The position numbers and the translations under genes are program-made. A stretch of DNA of 64,000 nt from Infirmifilum lucidum (GTDB taxonomy: Archaea; Thermoproteota; Thermoprotei; Thermofilales; Thermofilaceae), in contig NZ_CP062310.1 in NCBI RefSeq assembly GCF_014876775.1, positions 248,001 to 312,000 on the forward strand, in the 5' to 3' direction. Shown here piece after piece: positions 33,762-46,280 of the stretch (position 1 is its first letter; each line of letters opens with the position of its first letter). Under the pieces are notes generated by a model. That model saw only the letters and a program-made list of their open reading frames with translations, was not told where the DNA came from and made no database searches.

Positions 33762-34565
33762 TCAAGTTCTCACGTGCAGGCTGAGCCGGAGCCTCCTGTA
33801 GTAGACGTCCATTAGATCCTCCTCGTCCAGCACCCTGGAGTACTCGCGCGCGGCCCAGGCCTTGAACCAGCGCTCATCTTCAACGTATAGCGGGACGGCG
33901 TCTCTCAAGGCTTTGTAGAGGAGCTCGTTGGAAGCCTTGCTCAGGTCTACAACGTCGACTTCTGCGCCGTTCCAGAGCCGCGAGAGCTCACTGGCTATTG
34001 CGTCAAGCTCCCTCAGGCTCAGTTGCCTCTCTGCGAGGACGGCTACATCGTAGTCGCTTTCCTCAGTGTAGTCGCCTCTCGCCCTCGACCCGAAGAGCAG
34101 GAGGGCTTTGACTCCGAGGCTTCTCAGCAGAGCCAAGAGGCCCCCCGGTAGCTGTGGCGGATCCACGCCCCTCTCCTCGCTGGTGCGCAGGAGAACTTCC
34201 GCGAGACGCGGGATGTAGTCCCGTGCCCGCGAGTAGACCTCCCTAAGCTCGGCGAGATCTAGGAGCCTATATGTGTGAGCGAGCCTGTTCCTGTTCCTGG
34301 CCATCTCGGCGATGAGCTCGGCGTCCCCGGGGCTCACGAGACTATTCTCTGCGAGTACCTGGCCCATCCCCGCGTACGAGGGCGGCTTCTTGATCCCCAG
34401 CTCCGATATGAGCGCCGCCATGGCGTCGAGCGGGTCTTGGTGGGCCTCGTACAGGAACCACCGTAGTGACGCCTCCCCGTAAGCATCGAGCGAGGCCCTG
34501 CCCGCTAGCTCGCCTGCCTTTCTCAGGGCGTCTACGGCCCTGGAGACGGGGGCTCTAATCTCCAC
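33762..34565 (-). CDS. single-chain HEPN-MNT protein (HepT-like plus MntA-like fusion)
   Basis: A 267-residue protein that joins both halves of the HEPN/MNT toxin-antitoxin type. Residues 1-130 are all-helical with RNRLAHTY, the R-x4-H-x-Y RNase motif of HepT (Arg92, His97, Tyr99). Residues 140-230 form a minimal nucleotidyltransferase with LLFGSRARGDYTEESDYDVAVL (G159-S160, Asp171, Asp173) and a third acidic strand EVDVVDL. In the two-gene system MntA AMPylates the HepT Tyr to silence its RNase. Here all these residues are kept in one polypeptide, HEPN first. The last 35 residues are a helical tail. It stands alone between two sugar-uptake regions. Confidence 0.8.
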   Translation of the reverse strand: MEIRAPVSRAVDALRKAGELAGRASLDAYGEASLRWFLYEAHQDPLDAMAALISELGIKKPPSYAGMGQVLAENSLVSPGDAELIAEMARNRNRLAHTYRLLDLAELREVYSRARDYIPRLAEVLLRTSEERGVDPPQLPGGLLALLRSLGVKALLLFGSRARGDYTEESDYDVAVLAERQLSLRELDAIASELSRLWNGAEVDVVDLSKASNELLYKALRDAVPLYVEDERWFKAWAAREYSRVLDEEDLMDVYYRRLRLSLHVRT

Positions 34566-34668
34566 AGAGCAAATTAGGCTGGCTTGAGAATTAATTTTTA
34601 CGCTATTCTAGTTTAGTTCGCCTGAACCGTCGATCCTCTACTACCTCTTAGGGAGTTAGAGGGAAAGT

Positions 34669-44539: not shown

Positions 44540-44869
44540 CTAGATTTCCTTTAGATCTTTTATGAAGCGCTTATAGAGTTCAAACCTACTATTATCCACT
44601 ACATGGAACTCGAACGGGTCGTCAAATCCAGCTTTCCTCAGATTCGCTATTACGAAACTAGGATCAAGAGAGGTTAAAATTAGGATGTCAATATCGCTAG
44701 CTAAAGTATTTTCTCCTCTTGATGTTGAACCAAACAGGAATAACTTCCCATTACTATCTAGCCTTTTCATAGCGTCTTTGAGTCTATTCAGGTAGCTTCG
44801 AAGGTTCCTAAATACTTCTTCTCTCCTTTTTGCTTCTTCAACTAGAATATCTTCTAACAAACTCCTCAA
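44540..44869 (-). CDS. minimal nucleotidyltransferase (MNT) protein
   Basis: A 109-residue MNT-type protein. LFLFGSTSRGENTLASDIDILIL holds the G-S-x10-D-x-D catalytic motif (Gly47, Ser48, Asp59, Asp61). The N-terminal helix (VEEAKRREEVFRNLRSYLNRLKDAMKRL) is typical of MNT antitoxins. It overlaps the decayed HEPN gene upstream by about 30 bases, the usual partner arrangement. The MNT part looks intact although its HEPN partner is broken. Its present function is uncertain. Confidence 0.75.
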   Translation of the reverse strand: MRSLLEDILVEEAKRREEVFRNLRSYLNRLKDAMKRLDSNGKLFLFGSTSRGENTLASDIDILILTSLDPSFVIANLRKAGFDDPFEFHVVDNSRFELYKRFIKDLKEI

Positions 44870-45504: not shown

Positions 45505-45897
45505 ATGAGCACGGTAACGATCAGGGGGGTAGACGAAAAGACCTATAGGAAAATAAAGGCCATTGCAGCGCTTAGAGGAGTGAAGGTAGGTGACATTGTT
45601 AACGAGGCGCTGAAGCTCTGGCTTTCGATAAGGCCGGAGGTGTTGGAGGCATTTTCAACTATTGATGAAGAAGCTGACAGGAATAGGAAAGCCTATGAGA
45701 GTCTTAGATCGGAACTGGAGAAGTATAAAGGTAAATACGTAGCTATCGCCCACGGTAGCTTGCTAGGAGTCTACGACTCGATAAAGGAAGCCGCGGAAGC
45801 CGTAGAAAGAGCAAATGCGAGACATGGGATAGTGAAGAAGATAGTGGAAGAAGCCCCAGAGAAGGTAGAGCTGGGATGGAGTCTGGTAGAACTGTAA
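45505..45897 (+). CDS. RHH-DUF5678 protein (antitoxin-like)
   Basis: A 130-residue protein. Residues 1-43 form a ribbon-helix-helix DNA-binding domain (STVTIRGVDEKTYRKIKAIA, then VGDIVNEALKLWL). Residues about 65-112 match the small DUF5678 domain (LEKYKGKYVAIAHGSLLGVY, then DSIKEAAEAVERAN). The end extends into the next gene by 22 bases, so translation is coupled to the retropepsin-like partner. A perfect palindrome precedes the TATA box. This layout is like a toxin-antitoxin operon, but the partner is a protease-like protein and not a known toxin. Confidence 0.72.
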   Translation: MSTVTIRGVDEKTYRKIKAIAALRGVKVGDIVNEALKLWLSIRPEVLEAFSTIDEEADRNRKAYESLRSELEKYKGKYVAIAHGSLLGVYDSIKEAAEAVERANARHGIVKKIVEEAPEKVELGWSLVEL

Positions 45898-46280
45898 GGG
45901 GGTGGTATTCAGACAGAGAGAGGCCTCCCGTACCTTGCATTAGACTAAAAGTCTACACACCGTCTGAGAGGTATCTCGCTGAGATAGACGCGAATGTCGA
46001 TACCGGGTTTTCTGGGTCTCTACTAATTTCCCCTGACCTATACATTAAACTGGGCCTGGCTCTTTATGAGGAACCAGAAGTAGTCCGGGGTTCAGTGGCT
46101 GGAGGGTATTTCATAGACCTTAGAGTCTCGAATGGTATTGTTGAGCTAAATGGCCTAAGAACTGCCTGCAAGATCTACACAGCGCTGCTTGCCAAGAAGA
46201 ACCTAGTTGGAAGGGCTCTACTAAACAGGTTTAGGCTGGTTTTAGACGGGAAGAGCGGGGTTGTTGAGGTGGAATTATAG
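45876..46280 (+). CDS. single-domain retropepsin-like protease, partner of RHH-DUF5678
   Basis: A 134-residue protein with one aspartic protease motif, IDANVDTGFSGSLLISPDL (Asp42), and the fold-closing NLVGRALLNRFRLVLDGKSG. Clan AA single-domain proteins act as dimers. There is no signal peptide. The ATG lies within the end of the RHH gene and is the only usable start. The C-terminal L-V-G-R-x-L-L-N-R replaces the I-L-G-V strand of the related gene at 22292. A role in cleaving or regulating its RHH partner is a guess from the arrangement. Confidence 0.72.
   Translation: MESGRTVRGWYSDRERPPVPCIRLKVYTPSERYLAEIDANVDTGFSGSLLISPDLYIKLGLALYEEPEVVRGSVAGGYFIDLRVSNGIVELNGLRTACKIYTALLAKKNLVGRALLNRFRLVLDGKSGVVEVEL

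Follow-up and report, generated by a model that had tools for sequence, protein, structure and literature searches.

A single-chain HEPN-MNT fusion of Infirmifilum lucidum keeps the active sites of both HepT and MntA and may be a self-silenced RNase

HepT/MntA ranks among the most abundant toxin-antitoxin systems of thermophilic archaea. We know of no trigger that releases its toxin. In class I of the type VII systems (PF01934 plus PF01909; SO_3166/SO_3165 and Thermococcus cleftensis CL1_0071/0070), the closest system to the gene described here, MntA adds up to three AMPs to the Tyr of the HepT RX4HXY motif and so blocks the RNase, the archaeal case included (PMC7641770). In Legionella, a low-ATP branch leaves the HEPN protein unmodified (PMC11586414). 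No AMP-removing enzyme is identified in the cited work on HepT/MntA. The two domains have also been reported in single archaeal chains with no mechanism offered. HEPN-M/DUF86 proteins are "occasionally fused to MNT" (PMC3710099, Table 1), and the DPANN family cls.004259/NEQ050 is given as "MNT fused to HEPN" (PMC6393860, Table 1). Fused HEPNs are said typically to lack the RNase residues and to be mostly inactive domesticated modules (PMC3710099). Kanamycin nucleotidyltransferase, GlnE, and DrrA likewise carry NT and HEPN in one chain; in these the NT domain comes first, the HEPN domain lacks the RNase motifs, and other targets are modified (PMC3710099). Fusion of toxin and antitoxin is also seen in CapRel (PMC11578894), an autoinhibited toxin that can be released by a trigger.

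Here we describe a gene in which a HEPN domain is followed by an MNT domain in one open frame and both active sites are kept. The window analyzed is a 64-kb stretch (G000:C1:248001-312000) of the complete 1.63-Mb Infirmifilum lucidum genome, and the features are given in Table 1. With a probability of about two in three, we take the gene to be a single-gene derivative of type VII HepT/MntA in which the MNT half would silence its own or a sister RNase by AMPylation of Tyr99. Its GTG start is backed by the aligned starts of orthologues. Inspection of the upstream sequence found no Shine-Dalgarno sequence ahead of the GTG, so the mRNA is possibly a leaderless single-gene transcript.

Table 1 Features of the fusion gene, in window coordinates
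Feature	Position	Strand	Basis or remark
HEPN-MNT fusion ORF, 267 aa	33762..34565	-	GTG start at 34565, stop included
A+T-rich TATA-like stretch	34589..34600	-	24-35 nt upstream of GTG; read from sequence
HEPN (HepT-like) half, residues 1-131	34173..34565	-	Helical bundle; PF01934, predicted structure, Foldseek
R92-x4-H97-x-Y99 motif	34269..34292	-	Putative RNase residues and AMP-acceptor Tyr; conservation in 51 fusions
Linker GVDPPQLPG, residues 132-140	34146..34172	-	Coil by DSSP, flanked by helices 104-131 and 141-149
MNT (MntA-like) half, residues 141-267	33765..34145	-	PF18765, NF047752, Foldseek to MntA
G159-S160-x10-D171-x-D173 adenylyltransferase motif	34047..34091	-	Conservation in 51 fusions
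D204, putative third metal-binding acidic residue	33954..33956	-	Conserved in 49/51 fusions

An earlier note on this DNA, made from the letters alone, had proposed that HEPN and MNT are fused in one chain with HEPN first, and Pfam, NCBIfam, and structure comparison recovered HepT and MntA separately. PF01934 (HepT-like) matched residues 47-118 with 36.2 bits (cut-off 23.5), inside residues 1-130 where the note had placed the HEPN domain. The HepT toxin model NF047751 gave 35.3 bits, under its 60-bit cut-off despite an E value of 9e-9, which makes the HEPN half a clear but divergent HepT homologue. In the MNT half, PF18765 (Polbeta) matched residues 151-231 with 62.3 bits, above the Pfam cut-off, and the MntA antitoxin model NF047752 scored 76.3 bits, over its 60-bit cut-off; NTP_transf_2, the profile named in the note as a check, scored 38.3 bits. 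The motif residues are exactly those that the note had picked out. In the translation, R92-x4-H97-x-Y99 reads RNRLAHTY, GSRARGDYTEESDYD (residues 159-173, GS-x10-D-x-D) has the form G159-S160-x10-D171-Y-D173, and the third acid is D204 within GAEVDVVDL. By its position after the DxD strand, D204 appears to be the equivalent of S. oneidensis MntA D71 (PMC7641770). The fusion therefore contains both components that define class I, a PF01934/PF08780 HEPN with RX4HXY and an MNT with GSX10DXD (an exact match) plus a third acidic residue.

Structure prediction, also suggested in the note, was done with AlphaFold2 using a 51-row alignment and gave a mean pLDDT of 91.8 and a pTM of 0.63. The model is all-helical over residues 4-131 (pLDDT mostly >90), followed by a nine-residue coil and a beta/alpha domain from residue 141. 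In Foldseek searches of the PDB the C-terminal part matched MntA chains 7bxo and 6m6u (E ~1e-6) and the N-terminal part matched the HepT chains found in those complexes (TM-score by target length at most 0.85), and among the PDB chains listed none convincingly spanned both halves. The model thus predicts two well-formed domains, one resembling HepT and the other MntA in their solved complexes. Note that at a pTM of 0.63 the mutual placement of HEPN and MNT is unreliable, a weak point of the self-silencing reading; Tyr99 might be reached from within the chain or from the partner.

Conservation was assessed in 51 aligned HEPN-MNT fusions that are 18-79% identical to the 267-aa protein; all 51 matched both HEPN models (PF01934, NF047751) and both MNT models (PF18765, NF047752). 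Only Y99, G159, D171, and D173 are invariant. H97 (50/51), R92, N93, and D204 (49/51 each) are nearly so, with H97, D204, and R92 among the ten best-conserved columns. The claim that all catalytic residues of both enzymes are kept is thus borne out; these are the best-conserved columns, and such retention is not unique to the 267-aa protein. By our own hypergeometric estimate, which takes columns as exchangeable, the four invariant columns would all coincide with members of a set of eight catalytic positions, named beforehand out of 267, with a chance of ~3e-7. These alignments suggest that the AMP-acceptor Tyr99 is constrained equally with the adenylyltransferase site, as self-modification predicts. 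S160 is kept in 43 fusions and is Gly in the other 8, a point against self-silencing. The proteins with Gly, all of which keep DxD, are L075, L076, L080, L081, L082, L086, L104, and L105; the partial fusion L040 likewise has Gly for Ser and an intact DxD. Comparison with the 80% identical orthologue L020 gave dN/dS values of 0.20 for the HEPN half and 0.08 for the linker plus MNT; purifying selection acts on both halves. Judged from these sequences, fusion need not entail loss of the RNase site, contrary to the generalization of PMC3710099.

When 398 genomes of the phylum were searched with a profile and the open frames were then read, HEPN-MNT was found in one frame in at least 46 genomes of 19 families and the reverse order, MNT-HEPN, in at least nine genomes of eight families, these counts being minima from a profile made of HEPN-MNT fusions and hence biased to that order. 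Both orders occur together in five genomes, that of Infirmifilum lucidum included. Orthologues with the same domain order, which the note had proposed to look for, are present in related genomes. The colinear fusions of G022 and G023 are 79-80% identical and those of G019, G020, G014, and G021 are 46, 39, 33, and 29% identical; the closest named relative, Thermofilum MAG L001, is 80% identical across residues 1-264. In a tree of the HEPN domain, built on 135 columns and with many of its forks unresolved, the 267-aa fusion falls within a starred 16-row clade composed exclusively of HEPN-MNT fusions from Thermofilum-family genomes and at least six other families. The remaining HEPN-MNT fusions fall in further groups, the starred branches forcing at least three changes, and the MNT-HEPN fusions cluster as one group (92) in a separate HEPN clade.

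Standalone HEPN relatives that lie beside separate MNT genes often terminate in G-[IVL]-D-P followed by a stop codon (L026, L028, L122, L123, L127, L129, L130, L132, and L134 are examples). The linker of the fusion reads RGVDPP at that point, with D135 kept in 46/51 and P136 in 48/51 fusions, and this match fits an origin in which a HEPN gene was read on into a downstream MNT gene. Split HEPN-first pairs are found in the Infirmifilum lucidum genome at L005:1453-2262 (G000:C1 about 21.8-22.6 kb), where the frames are four bases apart, and at L007. Related archaea contain alternating MNT-HEPN-MNT(-HEPN) runs of frames (L026:876-2709, L042, and L100), from which fusions of either order could have arisen. 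Searches of plasmid and phage collections with tblastn and a scan of IMG/VR found no relative, and carriage of the fusion by plasmids or phages was dropped from consideration. An apparent bacterial match (L004) was false, being a methionyl-tRNA-synthetase-like ORF.

A sugar ABC transporter (SBP_bac_1, BPD_transp_1) flanks the fusion gene on one side, its binding-protein gene 237 bp further on; on the other side are an FGGY kinase gene, 103 bp before the fusion, and another permease pair. In G022 and G023 the fusion is placed elsewhere in the neighborhood, and across the clade, close relatives aside, the neighborhood comparison found no recurrent neighbor. The fusion is therefore a solitary, moving, and patchily present gene, like toxin-antitoxin genes, and as no partner gene recurs, it presumably needs no partner or relies on host factors. 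Aspartyl-protease-like genes lie close to some members but were rejected as partners, as Pfam backs only some of them, that of L139 has no Pfam match, and the 1.63-Mb genome has eight such genes. Elsewhere in the window a lone minimal nucleotidyltransferase (44540-44869, minus strand; NTP_transf_2, 44 bits) has no adjoining HEPN in the ORF list, and two overlapping ORFs (45505-46280, plus strand) form what seems to be a small two-gene module; the match of one to ribbon-helix-helix (FitA-like) proteins is weak, and the other has an aspartyl-protease-like DTG motif but no Pfam match.

Both domains, RX4HXY, GSX10DXD, and the third Asp are common to the fusion and HepT/MntA, and so are the folds of the two halves. 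In contrast to the two genes of HepT/MntA, it is a single ORF with no separate HEPN or MNT gene adjoining it. As the earlier note had argued, this is not a classical two-component module, and without a separable antitoxin there can be no classical addiction. The fusion is HEPN-first, whereas MNT is nearly always the 5' gene of split pairs (PMC3710099). Its MNT:HEPN ratio is forced to 1:1, whereas those of split systems are 2:6 (PMC7641770) or 1:4 (PMC11586414), and this difference, like the reported inactivity of most fused HEPNs, speaks against self-silencing. The DPANN family cls.004259, compared by its description, is MNT-HEPN by name and near-universal in its lineage, whereas the present fusion is HEPN-MNT and patchy (46/398). 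A nearer example of the reverse order is found in the same genome (L006:1408-2337, minus strand, G000:C1 about 377.3-378.3 kb; 309 aa as called), which keeps GSLARG..DID and RNILVHRY and has eight relatives in the phylum. All nine MNT-HEPN fusions keep R-x4-H-x-Y in translation; proteins of the L006 type resemble HEPN-MNT fusions in keeping both catalytic motifs and differ in their order and in a spacer of ~40-70 residues. A search of openly available papers found none describing or testing a HEPN-MNT fusion with both sites kept. The fusion architecture as such is already reported, and the retention of both active sites appears to be the new part.

As both active sites lie in one chain, each molecule would modify itself or another copy. 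HEPN RNases work as dimers, and modification between chains would therefore be as likely as within one. In the mechanism we propose, the N-terminal half would be a metal-independent RNase acting through R92 and H97, and the MNT half, with ATP and its GS/DxD/D204 site, would AMPylate Tyr99, either in the same chain or in the other chain of the putative HEPN dimer. The protein would be made and silenced as a unit at its fixed ratio. The most speculative steps concern release. De-repression might follow when AMPylation fails, because of low ATP, because the protein is truncated or cleaved (in the linker, for example), or because an invader product binds the MNT half as in CapRel (PMC11578894), and the outcome might be dormancy or a defense response. 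CapRel resembles the fusion in having toxin first and antitoxin second in one protein. However, the two are not homologous, the CapRel toxin pyrophosphorylates tRNA and its antitoxin blocks by binding rather than covalently, and no trigger is known for the HEPN-MNT fusion.

Other readings must be weighed against self-silencing. The MNT half could nucleotidylate another protein, tRNA, or a small molecule, with HEPN serving as a binding or dimerization domain devoid of RNase activity, as in kanamycin nucleotidyltransferase and GlnE. This is the role PMC3710099 proposes for most fused NT-HEPN proteins, and the stronger selection on MNT than on HEPN agrees with it. We consider it unlikely, however, as loss of Rx4-6H, the mark of domesticated NT-HEPN enzymes, is not seen: R92, H97, and Y99 are kept in 49, 50, and 51 of the 51 fusions down to 18% identity, and a substrate-binding domain has no need of a Tyr99 as invariant as DxD. 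The same invariance weighs against a protein that mainly AMPylates other, split HEPN toxins and uses its own HEPN as a docking subunit or decoy. Further HepT-like matches do occur in the genome, some beside separate MNT genes, but HepT/MntA pairs are generally cognate and the fusion is an isolated gene without a conserved partner, which leaves that possibility very improbable.

We give marginally less credence still to the production of two proteins from the gene, whereby GTG codon 134, preceded by GAGGAG, would serve as a second start and yield free MntA besides the fusion, keeping antitoxin in excess. The GAGGAG and GTG are present in the linkers of the 267-aa fusion gene and L021, with a similar site in L057, but such a linker site is present in only 13/51 fusions, and Shine-Dalgarno plus start sites are not enriched there (1.34% of codons in the linker vs 1.40% outside it, across the 51 fusions). 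In-frame stops do interrupt some relatives elsewhere (L057, L069, L070, L083, and L084), as expected if the frame came from faulty assembly or from a stop codon lost only recently, or if the gene were decaying. Against this stand the open frames of the same order in 46 genomes of 19 families, purifying selection, and the conserved catalytic columns. These refute the explanation at this locus and likewise dispose of the missing stop in a single sequence that the note had raised against its own reading, so that we give this explanation almost no weight.

A fusion that self-silences and has both sites cannot depend on loss of a labile antitoxin, and hence would part the AMPylation mechanism from addiction. 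It would also provide a one-protein system in which to seek the HepT/MntA trigger. A bolder proposal, which we regard as a long shot, is that Thermoproteota contain a widespread class of single-gene, covalently self-silenced RNases in which the domain order itself senses failure of translation or energy supply, or an attack on MNT. The toxin half would be translated ahead of its silencer, and truncation, linker cleavage, or ATP shortage would leave an unmodified, active RNase. If this is true, such a sensor-type fusion would be the covalent counterpart of fused toxin-antitoxin defense proteins such as CapRel.
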